Shown here: in pieces, positions 12,530-59,765 of the stretch
How the letters are laid out: each line of letters opens with the position of its first letter
Numbering within the stretch: the stretch's first letter is position 1
NCBI RefSeq assembly: GCF_003096195.1
Contig: NZ_CP023004.1
Span: 1,034,501-1,098,500, forward strand
Source: Ereboglobus luteus
GTDB taxonomy: Bacteria > Verrucomicrobiota > Verrucomicrobiia > Opitutales > Opitutaceae
Reading direction: 5' to 3'
Length of the DNA stretch: 64,000 nt
The notes under the pieces: model-generated
What the model was told of the DNA's origin: nothing
Seen by the model: the letters and a program-made list of their open reading frames with translations, nothing else
Databases searched by the model: none
Made by a program: the position numbers and the translations under genes

Positions 12530-15352
12530 CTACTTTAACACTTCGGCGAGCTTGCCAGCGGCTTTGCCGCCGCCCATGGCAAAGTCGGGTTTGCCGCCGC
12601 CTTTGCCGTCCAATTTTGCGCAGAGTTCGGCGACGAGTTTGCCGGCTTGATGACCGGCTTTGTTCGCGGCGGGGGAGCAGAAGACAACCACGGATACTTT
12701 TTCAGGGCCGAAGGCGGCGCCGAGTTTCACCACGCCTTCGCCGAGTTTGCTCAGCACTTGGCTGCCGATGCTGCGGAGGGCGTCGGGCGTCGGGGCCTCG
12801 ACAACGGCGGTGACTTGCTTGAGGCCGTCGGCGAGCCCGGTGGCTTTTGCGGCGAGGTCGGCGGCGAGGCTGGCGGCGGCGCGTTGTTCGTGGAGTTTGA
12901 GTTTCTTTTCCGTCTCGGTTTTGTGCGCGAGGAGGGTGTCGAATTTCTGGAGGATGTCTTGCGGGCCGGCTTGGATGCGGGCGCCGATTTCCTTGAGGAG
13001 CGTTTCGTGGTCGGAGGCGAGCGCGTAGGCGTGAAGGCCGGTGACGGCTTCGATGCGGCGCGTGCCGGCGGCGATGGCGCTTTCGACGCTGATTTTGAAG
13101 AGGCCGAGCTCGCCGGTGGCCGCGGTGTGCGTGCCGCCGCACAGTTCCATCGAGTAGCCGTCGAGTTTGCCGGGCGTGCCGCCGACTTGGACGACGCGGA
13201 CGCGGTCGCCGTATTTATCGCCAAAGAACTGGTTGATGTCCTTGCGGGCGGCGATGTCGGCGTGCGCGACTTCGGTGGCGCTCACGGTGGCGTTTTCGAT
13301 GATGCGCTGGTTGACGAGGGTTTCGATTTGGCGGAGCTGGTCGGGCTTGACTTGCTCGAAGTGCGCGAAGTCGAAGCGGAGGTAGCCGGGGTTGACGGAG
13401 GAGCCGGCCTGGCGGACGTGCGCGCCGAGCACTTCGCGGAGCGCCCAGTGGAGGAGGTGCGTGGCGGTGTGGTGGCGCTGGATCGCGCGGCGGCGGACGA
13501 CGTCGGGCGAAAGGCTGAAGGATTGAAGGACCGAGGGGGCGAGCTCGGAGGCTTCGGCGGGGTTGGCGAGTTCGTGGAGGTGGCGACCGGATTTGTCCTT
13601 GATGGTGCTGGCGATGGCGTAGGTTTTGCCGTTGATGGAAACGGTGCCGGTGTCGCCGACTTGTCCGCCCATTTCGGCGTAGAAGGGCGTGCGGTCGAAG
13701 ACGAGGCAGGCGCGTCCGTCGGAGACGGTGATGATTTCTACGAGGCTGGCGGTTTGCGGTTCGGGCTCGGCGTTGTATTGCGTGTGCGTATAATCGAAAC
13801 CGGTGAAGGGGGTGGGCGCGGCGGTGGCGCTGTCGTTGTCGTTTTCGGTAACGGTGATAATTTCCTTTTTTTGCGCGGCGCGGGCGCGGGCGCGCTGGGC
13901 TTCCATTTCTTTTTCGAAGCCGGCGGTGTCGACGGTGACAAGGTATTCAGCAGCGAGAAGTTGCGTCATATCCAGAGGAAAACCATAGGTGTCATAGAGT
14001 TCAAAAACTACAGCGCCCGGGATTATTGGCGTATGCAAAATTTTCTGCTGCTGGCCGTTTTTCCCCAATTCTTCATGAGCTAAGTTAGCTGCTCGACTGA
14101 AGAGTGCGATGCCGCGGTCGAGCGTTTTGCCGAAGTTTTCCTCTTCGTTGCGGATTACTTTTTCGATGAGCGTTTGTTGCTCTTTCAGTTCGGGGAAGAC
14201 GGTGCCGAGGGAGGCGACGACGGCGGGGACGAGTTTGGTGAAAAAGCCGGTGGAGAGGCCGAGGTCTTTGCGTCCGTAGAGGATGCCTCGGCGGAGGATG
14301 CGGCGGATGACGTAGTTGCGGCCTTCGTTACTCGGCAAAATTCCGTCGGCGATAGCGCATGAGACGGTGCGGGCGTGGTCGGCGAGGACGCGGAAGGCGA
14401 TGTCGGTGCGTTGTTGTTCGCTGAGGTTTTCGCGGGTGGCGGGGACGGTGCCGGTGTAGGTCTTGCCGGAGAGTTTGGCGATGGCCTCGAAGAGCGAGGT
14501 GAAGATGTCGGCGTTGTAGTTGGAGGGCTCGGGCGTGAAATCGGTGAAGGCTTTTGTGGTGGCGTAAATGCCGGCGACGCGTTCGAAGCCCATGCCGGTG
14601 TCAACGTGGCGCGCGGGGAGCGGCGAGAAGCTGCCGTCGGCCCCGGCGTTGAACTGGATGAAGACGTGGTTCCAGATTTCGATGCAGCGGGGGGAGCCGG
14701 AATTGACGAGTGCGCGGCCGGCGGCTTCGTCGTCGGAGGGAAGGAGGTTGAAGTGGATTTCGGAGCAGGGGCCGCAGGGGCCGGTGTCGCCCATCATCCA
14801 GAAGTTGTCTTTTTTGTTGCCGTTGACGATGTGGACGGCGGGGTCGAGTCCGGCGGCGCGGAAGAGGCCGGCCCAGATGTCGTGGGCTTCCTGGTCGAAG
14901 TCGGCGGGGTCGTTTTTCGATTTGTCGGGAGAGTAGACGGTGGCGAAGAGGCGCTTGGCGGGGATGCCCCAGACTTTGGTGAGCAGTTCCCAGCCCCAGG
15001 CGAGGGATTCTTTTTTGAAGTAATCGCCGAACGACCAGTTGCCGAGCATTTCGAACATGGTGTGGTGGTAGGTGTCGAAGCCGACGTCATCGAGGTCGTT
15101 GTGCTTGCCGCCGGCGCGGATGCATTTCTGGGTGTCGGTGGCGCGGGTGTCGAGCGCGGGGCGGAGGGTGTTGGGACGGTGCGCGGCGTCGGGTTTGCGT
15201 TCGTTGAGGAAGATGGGGACGAACTGGTTCATGCCGGCGTTGGTGAAGAGCAGGCCGGGCGAGTCGGGCATGAGCGAGGAGGACGCGACGATGCTGTGCT
15301 GCTGCGAGGCGAAGTAGTCGAGGAAGGATTGGCGGATTTCGGAGGCGGTCAT
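12530..15352 (-). CDS. alaS: Alanyl-tRNA synthetase
   Basis: Charges tRNA-Ala in the cytoplasm. The 940-residue protein has the class II catalytic core at the N-terminus (MTASEIRQSFLDYF and PGLLFTNAGMNQFVPIF), then the editing domain with the zinc-site motif HHTATHLLHW near residue 625 and CGGTH near 735, and a C-terminal DHHA1-like oligomerisation domain rich in Ala and Gly. The ATG at 15352 matches the family N-terminus; an in-frame codon 45 bases further upstream adds unrelated residues. The promoter side abuts a GxxExxY gene that is enclosed by inverted repeats. Confidence 0.97.
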   Translation of the reverse strand: MTASEIRQSFLDYFASQQHSIVASSSLMPDSPGLLFTNAGMNQFVPIFLNERKPDAAHRPNTLRPALDTRATDTQKCIRAGGKHNDLDDVGFDTYHHTMFEMLGNWSFGDYFKKESLAWGWELLTKVWGIPAKRLFATVYSPDKSKNDPADFDQEAHDIWAGLFRAAGLDPAVHIVNGNKKDNFWMMGDTGPCGPCSEIHFNLLPSDDEAAGRALVNSGSPRCIEIWNHVFIQFNAGADGSFSPLPARHVDTGMGFERVAGIYATTKAFTDFTPEPSNYNADIFTSLFEAIAKLSGKTYTGTVPATRENLSEQQRTDIAFRVLADHARTVSCAIADGILPSNEGRNYVIRRILRRGILYGRKDLGLSTGFFTKLVPAVVASLGTVFPELKEQQTLIEKVIRNEEENFGKTLDRGIALFSRAANLAHEELGKNGQQQKILHTPIIPGAVVFELYDTYGFPLDMTQLLAAEYLVTVDTAGFEKEMEAQRARARAAQKKEIITVTENDNDSATAAPTPFTGFDYTHTQYNAEPEPQTASLVEIITVSDGRACLVFDRTPFYAEMGGQVGDTGTVSINGKTYAIASTIKDKSGRHLHELANPAEASELAPSVLQSFSLSPDVVRRRAIQRHHTATHLLHWALREVLGAHVRQAGSSVNPGYLRFDFAHFEQVKPDQLRQIETLVNQRIIENATVSATEVAHADIAARKDINQFFGDKYGDRVRVVQVGGTPGKLDGYSMELCGGTHTAATGELGLFKISVESAIAAGTRRIEAVTGLHAYALASDHETLLKEIGARIQAGPQDILQKFDTLLAHKTETEKKLKLHEQRAAASLAADLAAKATGLADGLKQVTAVVEAPTPDALRSIGSQVLSKLGEGVVKLGAAFGPEKVSVVVFCSPAANKAGHQAGKLVAELCAKLDGKGGGKPDFAMGGGKAAGKLAEVLK

Positions 15353-15370
15353 GTTTTGGAAGATTTTTTT

Positions 15371-15834
15371 GTTCACCACGGAGACACGGAGGGGCACGGA
15401 GATCGGAGGTGAGTTTTTTTAGAGGGAGAGGCGTTTGATGCCGTCGCGGAGGAGCGGGACGTTGAAGTTGATTAGGAGCGCGGTTTTGATGTTGGCGAGG
15501 CGCAGGTAGGTGAGCGTTTGCGCCGTGTGGATGGGCATGAGCGTCTCGACGGCTTTTAGCTCGAGGATGAGTTCGTTGTTGATGACAAAGTCGATCCGAT
15601 AGGCGTCGTTTATGTCTTCGTCGCGATAGGTGATCGGGAGGATTTTTTGCCGTTCAAACGGGATTCCAAGATGGCGGAGCTCAATGGCGAGGCACGTTTC
15701 ATACGCCGATTCCAGCAAGCCCGGCCCGAGGTGTTTGTGGACGGCGATCGCGGCCCCAATAACACGCCCTGCCAAATCATCCCGATCCAGACTCATATTT
15801 GAACTCCGTGCTTCTCCGTGTCTCCGTGGTGAAC
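15371..15834. repeat. CCACGGAG inverted repeat pair enclosing the GxxExxY gene (copy A)
   Basis: The left arm at 15371-15400 (GTTCACCACGGAGACACGGA and onward) and the right arm at 15804-15834 are near-perfect inverted copies of about 30 bases, extended outward by short T/A runs. Each arm is three near-tandem units of about ten bases with core CACGGAG. The arms enclose one gene, a 125-residue GxxExxY protein. Three further copies with no gene inside occur in this window, at 26841, 35509 and 52024. Confidence 0.85.
15419..15796 (-). CDS. GxxExxY protein (PD-(D/E)XK nuclease-like)
   Basis: A 125-residue protein carrying the family motif GLLESAY (G26, E29, Y32) and a PD-(D/E)XK-type core: D69 in YRIDF and E79-x-K81 in LILELKAVE. 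The family is widespread in PVC bacteria and its biological role is unknown; nuclease activity is inferred from the core motif. The length is normal and the core residues are intact. It lies between alaS and leuB on the same strand and is enclosed by inverted repeats of about 30 bases, so gene and repeats may move or be maintained as one unit. Confidence 0.9.
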   Translation of the reverse strand: MSLDRDDLAGRVIGAAIAVHKHLGPGLLESAYETCLAIELRHLGIPFERQKILPITYRDEDINDAYRIDFVINNELILELKAVETLMPIHTAQTLTYLRLANIKTALLINFNVPLLRDGIKRLSL

Positions 15835-15841
15835 AAAAAAC

Positions 15842-24745: not shown

Positions 24746-25837
24746 CTATTGTTTCTCCAGCAAATACAAAAACTCCCTGACGTGCTTCGAGCGGTTGCCC
24801 AGGTTTCGGCTGGCGCGGAAGGTGTTATATTTTGTTTCGAGAACGGTGAGCTTTCCGCATTTTTCCAGGGCGTTTATAAAACCTTCGCGCGAAATAAATC
24901 CCTCCGAATTATATGATATTAATATAAACTTCGCCTTGCAGCGCGCGACAAGGTTCAGGAGCGCGTTCTCGGCTTCCGTTTTCAGATTATACGCGGAGCG
25001 TTTCCAATTCGTCGGAATCCCGGAGATTTTGCTGATTTTTGCGGGCCGTTCATAATCCGCCAGCAGGTTCAGCATAAAATAATTCGAACCGTAGGGATGC
25101 TGATTGTAAGGCGGGTCGAGGTAGGCGATATCGACTTCCGCAATGTCGTCGATGATCGTGTTCGCATCGCCCTGCATAACGCTGAAATCGCACTCGAAAC
25201 GCGAAAACACGGGCGTGTCGATTTCGATTTTTCCAAGGATGCGCGAGAGGGCGTTTTTGGCATGGCCGCCGAATTCGCCGACGCGGTTTTTGTTTTTATA
25301 AAATCCCTTGAACACGCCCGAGGTGTTTGCGTGCACGGAGGCGCGGGCGATCAACGGGGCGAGAAAATATTTTTGCATGTCCGCCGGTAGCGCGGCGATT
25401 TGCTGGCGCGCGGTGTCGAGGAATTGCGCGTTGCGGCGCGTATAAAAACAGCGGTCCTGCGGCGTGATGCTGTCTTCGTCGCGGGGCGCGTAGAGCTCGG
25501 TGATGAAACCGGGCGCGAGATTGTTTTCCACGGCGCGGCGCAGTTCGGCGGCGAGCGATTGCAACGCGCCCGGATCGACCGCGGACGCATTCGAGAGATA
25601 ACATTCGTTTGTGATGCGGCTGTAGTTTTCGAGATCGTTGGCGATTATGTGCGCGGAGTGCTGCTTGAGATAACGCGCTACGATTCCGGTGCCTGAAAAC
25701 AAATCGAGCGAGCGCAGTTTGTTTTTCCCGAGCCGCCTTTTGACAATGCCAAGCCCCTCGCCGATGAACGGCAGCAACGCGCGCTTGTTGCCGATGTAGG
25801 TGATGATCTGCGACTGGAGGTAGGCGGCGTCCTCCAA
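24746..25837 (-). CDS. Orphan DNA adenine-N6 methylase (D12 class)
   Basis: A 363-residue DNA methylase with the alpha-group motif order: motif X ITYIGNKRALLPFI, motif I DLFSGTGIVARYL, and motif IV AYLDPPYNQHPYGSNYF. It methylates adenine in a specific sequence; no restriction gene lies next to it. There is no ATG near the conserved start. The likely start is TTG at 25837, which begins LEDAAYLQSQ as in relatives. That codon abuts a palindromic repeat, so the 5' end may have been changed by insertion. The stop is four bases from the convergent U32 stop. Confidence 0.82.
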   Translation of the reverse strand: MEDAAYLQSQIITYIGNKRALLPFIGEGLGIVKRRLGKNKLRSLDLFSGTGIVARYLKQHSAHIIANDLENYSRITNECYLSNASAVDPGALQSLAAELRRAVENNLAPGFITELYAPRDEDSITPQDRCFYTRRNAQFLDTARQQIAALPADMQKYFLAPLIARASVHANTSGVFKGFYKNKNRVGEFGGHAKNALSRILGKIEIDTPVFSRFECDFSVMQGDANTIIDDIAEVDIAYLDPPYNQHPYGSNYFMLNLLADYERPAKISKISGIPTNWKRSAYNLKTEAENALLNLVARCKAKFILISYNSEGFISREGFINALEKCGKLTVLETKYNTFRASRNLGNRSKHVREFLYLLEKQ

Positions 25838-25909
25838 GGTGGCACGGACATTTCTGTCTGCGCGGATATTCACGCCGCCTTCGGCACAGACAGGAATGTC
25901 CGTGCTACC
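25838..25909. repeat. Palindromic repeat (CACGGACATTTCTGTCTG type)
   Basis: Arms of 23 bases at 25838-25860 (GGTGGCACGGACATTTCTGT and onward) and 25887-25909 are inverted copies with two mismatches, separated by 26 bases. It lies directly upstream of the methylase start and is in frame with it, so the methylase frame runs through the repeat without a stop. Confidence 0.7.
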
Positions 25910-25941
25910 TTGATTGCGCTGTGCCTCGCATTCCACTCGGA

Positions 25942-26817: not shown

Positions 26818-26840
26818 GGATGGTTTGTTCGAAATTTTTA

Positions 26841-26926
26841 TTAACCACGGAGAACACGGAGAAGCACGGAGGTGAAAAAATCGTGTTCTGTCTGTCTCCG
26901 TGTCTCTCCGTGTTCTCCGTGGTTAA
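26841..26926. repeat. CCACGGAG inverted repeat, gene-less hairpin (copy B)
   Basis: Arms at 26841-26871 (TTAACCACGGAGAACACGGA and onward) and 26896-26926 are inverted copies with one mismatch, enclosing 24 bases. It has the same unit structure as the arms around the GxxExxY gene but no gene inside. It lies in the 118-base gap between sufS and purU. Confidence 0.85.
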
Positions 26927-26935
26927 ATAATAATA

Positions 26936-35508: not shown

Positions 35509-35603
35509 TTAACCACGGAGGACACGGAGAGGCACGAAGATTTTTAGGAAACCCGGGCGTCGCAAGCAACGCCCTCAGTATTCTCCGTGTCCTCCGTGGT
35601 TAA
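35509..35603. repeat. CCACGGAG inverted repeat, gene-less hairpin (copy C)
   Basis: The left arm starts TTAACCACGGAGGACACGGA at 35509, and the right arm ends with TCCTCCGTGGTTAA at 35603. The arms match as inverted copies, and the inner 40 bases are unrelated to copy B. It occupies the gap between sufD and sufT. Confidence 0.85.
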
Positions 35604-36893: not shown

Positions 36894-36944
36894 GTATGCG
36901 TGTGCGTTTTAAATTTTCAAAAATGTGATGCGCGAACGGGCCGC

Positions 36945-37095
36945 GCCGAAGAGTGAAATATGAAGGGTGAAAAGTGTTCCGAGTGAAGTGAGAAGCCTGA
37001 CAAACCGGACTTCGGAGGAGAGGGCGAGGGATGATGTTTGGAAAAGGTATTTGGTTTTTCTTTTACTCTTCACCCTTCACTTTTCACTCTTCGGC
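36945..37095. repeat. Inverted repeat of GAGTGAAAAGTGAAG type
   Basis: The left arm (GCCGAAGAGTGAAATATGAA and onward, from 36945) and the right arm (TTTTACTCTTCACCCTTCAC and onward, 37061-37095) are inverted copies of about 35 bases with a few mismatches, each built of short GTGAA-type units. It fills much of the 215-base gap between sufD and sufB. A single related arm is seen at 53487-53516. Confidence 0.75.
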
Positions 37096-37108
37096 GGCTG
37101 AGCCATGC

Positions 37109-52023: not shown

Positions 52024-52054
52024 CTCCGTGTATCCCGGTGCCCTCCGTGGTTAA
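52024..52054. repeat. CCACGGAG repeat, single right arm (copy D)
   Basis: CTCCGTGTATCCCGGTGCCC and the following CTCCGTGGTTAA match the right arm of copies A to C. No left arm is found nearby, so this is a solo arm, in the gap upstream of the LysE gene and downstream of the sugar transferase. Confidence 0.65.
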
Positions 52055-57795: not shown

Positions 57796-57855
57796 TAGGG
57801 CGAACCGTCCCCGGTAAGCCGCGCAATTTTGGTTTACCGGGGACGGTTCGCCCTA
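57796..57855. repeat. Perfect 22-base inverted repeat (TAGGGCGAACCGTCCCCGG type)
   Basis: Arms at 57796-57817 and 57834-57855 match perfectly as inverted copies with a 16-base loop. It lies between the convergent DUF4097 and DUF192 stops. A weaker half-copy with GCAGGGCGAACCG is at 18359, between kdsB and the thioesterase gene. Confidence 0.8.
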
Positions 57856-58515: not shown

Positions 58516-59655
58516 ATGGCTACTCCCACCTCAAAACTCCTCTACGCGGCTTCCGCCAACAATCCAGACCAGCTTTATTTCGGACGCGTCAGCGTGCCCG
58601 ATCCGTTTATCGCGTTTTCGATCGCGGGCAAAAAATACGCCATCGTCAACGCGCTCGAATACGCCCGCGTCAAGCGCGACTCCGCCTTTGACGTCGTGCT
58701 GCCCCTCGAAACCTACGCCGAGAAGGCGATGGAGCGCTTCGGCAAGTTCGGACGCCTCTCGCCCGCCGAAACCATTGCCGTGATCGCCGCCGAGTTCGGG
58801 CAAAAATCCTTTCTCGTGCCCGAGGATTTTCCCGCCAGCCTCTACGCGCGCCTCTCGATTCTGCACGGTATCAAACTCGAGCCCGTCAACGGCCCCATTT
58901 TCCCCGAGCGCGAAATCAAGACGCCCGCCGAGGCCGCGAAAATCAAGGAAGGCAACCGTTGCGCCGCGGCAGGCATCGCCGCCGCCGAAAAAGTGCTCAA
59001 GGAAAGTAAAATCTCCAACGGAAAACTCACGTGGCAACGCAAGCCGCTCACCTCCGAGCGCCTCAGGACCGCCATCGAAATCGCCTGCCTCGAGGCCGGC
59101 TCGCTTTCAATCGACACCATCGCCGCGGGCGGCAACCAGGCCTGCGATCCGCACCACGGCGGCAGCGGCGTGCTCCGCGCCAACCAGCTTATCGTCGTGG
59201 ACGTGTTCCCGCGCGTGCAGGCGACCGGCTACCATGGCGACATGACGCGCACGTTCCTCAAGGGCCGCGCCAACGACTTCCAGAAAAAACTCGTCGCCAC
59301 CGTGCGCGAAGCCCAGCTCGCTGCGCTCAAGCTCGTCAAGGCGGGCGTCAACGGACAAGTCGTGCACCAGGCCGTCAACGACACTTTCTCCAAACACGGC
59401 TACAAAACCGAGCGCACCGAGAAGGGCGCCACCGGCTTTTTCCACGGCACCGGCCACGGACTCGGCCTCGCCGTGCACGAGGCCCCGCGCGTGAGCACCG
59501 TCGATTACGTTTTGAAGGCGGGCTCGGTTGTCACCATCGAGCCGGGTCTCTATTATCCCGGCCACGGCGGCTGCCGCATCGAGGACGTCGTGCAAGTCAC
59601 CGACGCCAAACCCAAGATGCTCTCCAGCTTCCACTACAACTGGGAAATTAAATAA
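58516..59655 (+). CDS. M24-family aminopeptidase (Xaa-Pro type)
   Basis: A 379-residue metallopeptidase with a creatinase/prolidase N-terminal domain and a pita-bread catalytic domain. The five metal ligands are found in IVVDVFPR and GDMTRTF (Asp), HGTGHGLGLAVHE (His), IEPGLYYPG (Glu) and IEDVVQVT (Glu). It hydrolyses Xaa-Pro peptides or similar; the exact specificity is not determined. The ATG at 58516 begins MATPTSKLL. Confidence 0.92.
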   Translation: MATPTSKLLYAASANNPDQLYFGRVSVPDPFIAFSIAGKKYAIVNALEYARVKRDSAFDVVLPLETYAEKAMERFGKFGRLSPAETIAVIAAEFGQKSFLVPEDFPASLYARLSILHGIKLEPVNGPIFPEREIKTPAEAAKIKEGNRCAAAGIAAAEKVLKESKISNGKLTWQRKPLTSERLRTAIEIACLEAGSLSIDTIAAGGNQACDPHHGGSGVLRANQLIVVDVFPRVQATGYHGDMTRTFLKGRANDFQKKLVATVREAQLAALKLVKAGVNGQVVHQAVNDTFSKHGYKTERTEKGATGFFHGTGHGLGLAVHEAPRVSTVDYVLKAGSVVTIEPGLYYPGHGGCRIEDVVQVTDAKPKMLSSFHYNWEIK

Positions 59656-59765
59656 ATGCGGAATGCGGATTTCGAAATGCGGAATGAAAACTGAAATCTG
59701 GAAATCCGCGCGCATATAACGCTTGCGTCCGGCAATTCCGCATTCCGAAATCCGCATTCCGCATT
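59655..59765. repeat. Inverted repeat of AATGCGGAATGCGGATTTCG type
   Basis: The left arm (AATGCGGAATGCGGATTTCG and onward, 59655-59686) and the right arm (59735-59765) are inverted copies of 31 bases with one or two mismatches. Each arm is made of three AATGCGG-type units. It fills the gap between the aminopeptidase stop and the hldA start, three bases before the ATG. Confidence 0.85.

Follow-up and report, generated by a model that had tools for sequence, protein, structure and literature searches.

Among the described systems with which the locus reported here can be compared, the REP/RAYT elements (REPtrons, REPINs and TIRtrons) are chromosomal arrangements in which a gene is bounded by palindromic repeats in inverted orientation, hairpin doublets without a gene are numerous in intergenic DNA, and the repeat types are specific to the resident gene. 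The gene encodes RAYT, a tyrosine transposase of the HUH/Y1 class, and the REPs bear a GTAG (or CGTC) tag (PMC3733652, PMC3116915). Insertion sequences and MITEs have terminal inverted repeats and occur as coding plus non-coding copies, and the intervening sequences of 23S rRNA genes carry a small ORF, S23, between inverted repeats; these intervening sequences have been called selfish and were long suspected of being mobile (PMC4990558).

The window analysed here is a 64,000-nucleotide stretch of the genome of Ereboglobus luteus (NZ_CP023004.1, positions 1,034,501 to 1,098,500; the genome is referred to as G000). The leuB-alaS gap within it is occupied by a GxxExxY gene and a pair of inverted arms:

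15419-15796, minus strand: GxxExxY gene, 125 aa, a predicted PD-(D/E)XK nuclease with profile matches
15365-15401, plus strand: left inverted arm, TTTTTTGTTCACCACGGAGACACGGAGGGGCACGGAG, with three CACGGAG-type units
15804-15840, minus strand: right inverted arm, which pairs with 15365-15401 and ends beside the leuB stop codon (15842)

The left arm stands in the gap preceding the alaS start codon (ATG at 15352, minus strand), and both arms proved to be real and somewhat longer than first noted in a preliminary description of this DNA. The same description had offered RAYT and REP as the closest comparison. The gene-flanking repeats do recur as gene-less inverted doublets, as those of REPtrons do, but the comparison fails on enzyme class and on sequence tag: the GxxExxY elements encode a putative PD-(D/E)XK nuclease and no HUH/Y1 enzyme, and their arms consist of units spaced 8-10 bp apart that start near ACC, with no GTAG or CGTC tag. 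Unlike insertion sequences and MITEs, the unit has neither a DDE nor another transposase and no fixed target duplication, its arms are built of repeated units, and the only ORF inside the window copy is the GxxExxY gene itself. That ORF is not of the S23/four-helix type either, and in contrast to the intervening sequences, which lie in rRNA genes and encode a four-helix protein, the GxxExxY elements are intergenic and found genome-wide.

The window ORF matches the profiles TIGR04256 (147.8 bits; curated cut-off 35) and PF13366 (145.9 bits; curated cut-off 22), both far over the cut-off. The residues that had been proposed as its catalytic core, D69, E79 and K81, are present as proposed and are invariant in the window protein and 75 relatives; in the same 76 sequences H20, E29 (within the GxxExxY motif), Y32 and N110 are also invariant and Q93 and Y97 nearly so, the window protein having Q93xxxY97. 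A D..ExK..QxxxY pattern of residues is that of RecB/Cas4-type nucleases. The fold of the modelled window protein is confident (pLDDT 94.5), and Foldseek ranks Cas4 SSO0001, LHK-Exo and lambda exonuclease as its best PDB matches, at modest E-values (4e-3); no solved structure related by sequence to the window protein was detected. From residues and model together, the GxxExxY protein is predicted to be a RecB/Cas4-type PD-(D/E)XK nuclease, which would share with RecB, Cas4 and lambda-exonuclease proteins the predicted fold and the D, ExK and QxxxY residues, but which differs from them in comprising only 125 aa and in being encoded inside inverted arms. In-frame stops occur in 5 of the 80 named GxxExxY copies, as expected of decaying mobile copies. 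Membership in an anti-phage defence family was rejected, the GxxExxY protein having no PADLOC match, and so was membership in a phage family, the single PHROG match being weak (E 0.005).

The generality of the arrangement was assessed by aligning the 250 bp upstream of each gene with the reverse complement of the 250 bp downstream, a score of at least 14 being taken as arms. The 110 GxxExxY genes used came from 80 named loci, from relatives and from the 4 genes of this genome, loci cut too near the gene being excluded. GxxExxY genes usually sit between inverted arms, and this observation is real and general: 73/110 had them, compared with 12/1629 control windows from the same loci, and dinucleotide shuffles reached the same score in 9/2200 cases. 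Among 20 further GxxExxY genes the result was replicated (15/20 with arms vs 5/259 controls). An excess of flanking arms, on which the preliminary description had made its reading depend, is thus present and very large. That the arms are ordinary terminator or regulatory hairpins standing beside GxxExxY genes by chance might be suggested by the intergenic position of the hairpins, both in the window and in the genome. This is nevertheless extremely improbable, as two arms flank the gene on opposite sides and do not make up one hairpin, other ORFs of the same loci are without the pattern (2/133 with arms), and closely related genomes differ in presence and absence; for the gene-flanking arms it is refuted by the controls.

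At a score of at least 16, arms were found in Chloroflexota, Proteobacteria, Planctomycetota, Cyanobacteria, Acidobacteriota, Verrucomicrobiota, Bacteroidota, Spirochaetota and others, the share in Bacteroidota being low (6/20). Detectable arms are absent at about one third of the GxxExxY genes, many of them from Bacteroidota. Where arms exist, their similarity climbs with protein identity (Mantel r 0.41, reached in 0/5000 permutations), and for pairs between phyla only the coefficient is 0.38, compared with 0.19 for arms permuted inside phyla (0/5000). This result is compatible both with a unit that travels together and with a protein that recognises its arms. The number of arm-pattern sites also follows the gene: the 27 genomes that carry GxxExxY have a median of 30 and the 11 that lack it a median of 0 (p 1.4e-5), the figures within the family alone being 37 with GxxExxY vs 3-6 without (p 0.03). 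Genome size and kinship are controlled only in part in these comparisons, and both this dosage and the Mantel correlations are expected from simple co-transfer of gene and arms as well. One genome (G006) has two GxxExxY genes, zero four-helix genes and 110 arm sites, and another (G035) has three GxxExxY matches and zero arm-pattern sites. For some hairpin types, such as CACGGATTA in G003 (a genome ~95% identical to G000 along the window), none of the GxxExxY genes seen has the unit concerned.

Four GxxExxY genes are present in the 4.17 Mb genome, each with adjoining arms or hairpin and each with a different unit:

window copy: unit CACGGAG
L002 copy: unit CAGATG/CACAGATG
L003 copy, between argH and mutL: unit GCGGAA
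L004 copy, between hsdM and hsdS: unit CGCGGAG, the downstream hairpin alone being seen

Four copies with four unit types indicate that the arms are one design and not one sequence. The outer end is usually ACC, mostly as T-N-N-ACC in arms with CACGGAG-like units, and is followed by about three like units 8-10 bp apart that point inward from both ends; the autocorrelation of most GxxExxY arms accordingly has its peak at 8, 9 or 10. The units (for example CACGGAG, CACAGAG, CGCAAAG and CACGGAT) vary between elements and agree between the two arms of an element. In 54 of 63 elements neither arm is more than 100 bp from the gene match. Arms and gene together have a median length of 477 bp, i.e., a unit of ~470 bp. 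As a separate observation, a GxxExxY gene (L018 stretch, G000:1893500-1899000) lies within a type I restriction operon, between hsdM and hsdS, and overlaps both of these neighbours by a few bases.

Arms of the CACGGAG type are also found elsewhere in the window, at some distance from the gene:

26834-26934, no strand assigned: gene-less hairpin with CACGGAG-unit arms at 26834-26871 and 26896-26934
35509-35603, no strand assigned: gene-less hairpin with CACGGAG-unit arms at 35509-35530 and 35582-35603
52024-52054, minus strand: single degraded arm, CCACGGAGGGCACCGGGATACACGGAG

Both hairpins, which had been noted before, have exact cores, the first having been placed at 26841-26926 before its extension. 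The lone arm stands as a single arm in which all three units are recognisable, but it is degraded, with 3 mismatches to the core pattern. When up to 3 mismatches are allowed, a 17-mer arm pattern occurs 7 times in the window, where 0.66 occurrences are expected; 7 was reached in 0/100 shuffles. Over the whole genome, 26 exact sites of the two-unit core CCACGGAG-N(0-4)-CACGGAG were counted, most of them in close inverted pairs, vs 0 for the reversed pattern.

Comparison of orthologous gaps, in which such hairpins may be present, absent or swapped for hairpins with other units, showed that arms and genes do differ between related genomes. The hairpin at 26834-26934 is found in G003 too and is replaced by other-unit hairpins in G001 and G002, and in place of that at 35509-35603 another hairpin type is found in G001 and a degraded one in G002. 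A CACGGAT-unit hairpin of G003 is missing from G000 between matching flanks, and at G000:115029-115194 a CAGATG hairpin is nested within a CACGGAG hairpin. For the gene-bearing L002 element a clean empty site exists in G003, and the gene is also missing from G001 and G002. A 14-bp direct repeat, TTTGTCCCTTTCCC, stands at both insertion ends in G000 and as one copy in G003; because it lies well outside the L002 arms, the inserted DNA extended beyond the arms and the gene. A deletion in G003 is a possible but less parsimonious alternative for this site. G031 carries two copies, separated by 2.3 kb, that share 95% identity over 469 bp; the identity stops at the arms, the flanks being unrelated. 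Arms and gene thus relocate together as one unit, and hairpins built to the same design do so even where the gene is missing. There is good support for the mobility of units bounded by arms, and likewise for the earlier reading of a gene-bearing element with gene-less miniatures: of the two conditions that were to refute it, a lack of excess arms beside the genes and arms that never differ between orthologous gaps, neither was borne out. A consistent or fixed target duplication was not found in the 63 elements, direct repeats of 8 bp or more occurring in 4/63 (0.8% by chance), with one clean 14-bp case, the L002 site. Spread by way of plasmids was rejected, as no more than 8 of 72,556 plasmids have a relative.

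One site (L101), which is gene-bearing in G003 and has a gene-less CACGGAG hairpin in G001, would also be compatible with homing, in which the nuclease cuts gene-less hairpins with its own units and repair from the gene-bearing copy results in gene conversion and not transposition. The resemblance of hairpin arms within a genome to those of the resident gene, and a nuclease fold from a group acting on DNA ends, fit the same idea. The G003 empty site and the hairpin-free G000 site, however, point to insertion where arms are now absent, and the G031 copies lie in unrelated flanks, so that homing appears distinctly unlikely.

Four-helix-bundle genes (TIGR02436, S23-like) of the same genomes served as a control family, and 23/34 of them turned out to have inverted arms as well, compared with 0/204 controls. 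Their arms consist of 7-bp units (autocorrelation 0.66 at 7), and the genes encode no nuclease domain. Two hairpins of this heptad class lie in the window:

36944-37096, no strand assigned: heptad-class hairpin of GAAGAGTGAA units; the arms of the four-helix gene resident at G000:2676624 match it
59655-59765, no strand assigned: heptad-class hairpin of GCGGAAT units; the arms of the four-helix gene resident at G000:146743 match it

In the gap corresponding to 36944-37096, G003 has a TAATGAA-unit hairpin instead. Over the 1.26 Mb examined, all ten heptad hairpins matched resident four-helix arms with scores of 17-28, vs 14 or less for 66 foreign elements. The nine CACGGAG hairpins of the same 1.26 Mb match the arms of the window gene and foreign elements too, because the CACGGAG unit is common. 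As to the four-helix genes of G000 themselves, those at 112587, 146743, 506492, 610285, 1585169 and 2676624 (L177, L218-L223) lie between inverted arms with mostly 7-bp units (AGGAGTC, GCGGAAT, CCAGA, TAATGTA, AAATTCC and GAAGAGTGAA), and for most of these arm types matching gene-less hairpins are present in the genome. Heptamer repeats have been described in work on TAACTGA direct repeats, with no link to S23 (PMC4679880).

Since the four-helix family is organised alike without a nuclease, a nuclease in the element is unnecessary for the spread of arms, and the protein in the element may serve as a recogniser, or be carried along as a passenger, without being the mover. Two unrelated protein families with the same arm logic, at a spacing of 8-10 bp in one and 7 bp in the other, also raise the alternative that machinery of the host or of another element (replication, repair at hairpins, or a transposase acting in trans) moves arms and genes, the GxxExxY and four-helix proteins being passengers or auxiliary binders with a protective, targeting or regulatory role at the hairpins. 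The many hairpin families housed side by side in the single genome G000, and the different hairpin types that sister species hold in the same intergenic gaps, are in keeping with this. A reverse transcriptase (RVT_1) was undetected in nine arm-rich genomes (G000, G004, G005, G007, G014, G017, G019, G024 and G031, with 27-242 arm sites), which rules it out as a required mover. A Y1/HUH gene may not be strictly required either, as none was detected in G019 with its 27 sites, but draft assemblies limit this point and most other genomes have Y1 genes. Genomes without GxxExxY, moreover, have few or no arms even where Y1 genes are present (G020, G029), and the GxxExxY active site is conserved. A mover of this shared kind is therefore considered rather unlikely.

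A further possibility is that the arms act at the RNA level, where they would pair in the transcript and RNase III would excise the insert, making insertions into operons harmless and leaving the protein with a role unrelated to the arms. Insertions that carry four-helix (S23) ORFs, end in inverted repeats of 28 bp and are excised by RNase III are indeed on record (PMC4990558), and some elements lie between co-directional genes, e.g., argH-mutL and alaS-leuB. This idea leaves the tandem-unit design, the tracking of units with the protein and the spread of gene-less hairpins all unexplained, and it is very unlikely.

The best explanation overall, to which a probability of roughly 0.55 is assigned, is a mobile unit of ~470 bp whose GxxExxY nuclease recognises the element's own units and cuts, the ends being joined by host repair. 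The gene and its two arms would constitute one such small chromosomal unit, and the gene-less hairpins would be non-autonomous relatives dispersed in the same genome. Each arm can be pictured as a row of some three recognition units set roughly one helical turn from one another, the two ends mirroring each other. The GxxExxY protein would most likely recognise its own type of unit, a step that the correlations make reasonably probable, and recognition and cutting would probably take place on a hairpin or cruciform formed by the arms in single-stranded or supercoiled DNA. Host repair might then copy the ends into intergenic DNA or join them there, in which case target duplications would not be fixed in length. 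That cleavage by the GxxExxY protein drives the movement seems an even bet; catalysis is something we infer, because the non-nuclease four-helix family shows the same pattern. Further points against the explanation are the roughly one third of GxxExxY genes with no arms detected, the hairpin types with no gene of their unit among those seen, G035 with its matches and no sites, the want of a consistent target duplication, and the position of the L002 direct repeat beyond the arms. More tentatively still, the GxxExxY protein may read units spaced 8-10 bp apart and drive their copying, in parallel with a four-helix class that uses 7-bp units.

The GxxExxY family appears to supply the protein of a very small type of mobile DNA element that had not been recognised before. 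In the open literature that was covered, neither GxxExxY nor these arm sequences are anywhere tied to mobility: the name GxxExxY occurs in two unrelated papers, PF13366 in one, and the arm sequences in none of relevance. A large family, spread through many bacterial phyla and without an assigned function, would thereby acquire a concrete and testable role, and short intergenic hairpin repeats that are ownerless in the same literature would gain an owner. As units vary between elements and match within each, protein and repeat offer natural pairs for reading out and swapping recognition. The parallel with S23/four-helix genes bears on a long-standing problem, the manner in which rRNA intervening sequences spread, and, if true, two protein-repeat codes would account for many short intergenic hairpin repeats of environmental bacteria.

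Several other hairpin families were observed in this genome. Separate GTAGGGC-type hairpins coexist with those described above, and a family of the form GGTAGGGCGAACC...CCGGGTGAGCCG is found at 57796-57855 of the window and at G000:31836, 131596, 278675, 308298 and others; it is possibly a GTAG-tagged REP of a RAYT, and the genome has 6 Y1_Tnp matches. Hairpins with CGCGTGCGCAAGGAGCGGCGGCGTCC are clustered within ~75 kb (G000:2567800-2640938), and a further family (GCACGGACATTTCTGTCTG) is seen at 25835-25912 of the window, the sequence in the orthologous gap of G003 being different. Finally, a stretch of ~748 bp at 24843-25589 of the window, which codes for part of a DPPY-type adenine methylase, is absent from G003, with an overlap of a few bp at the junction.
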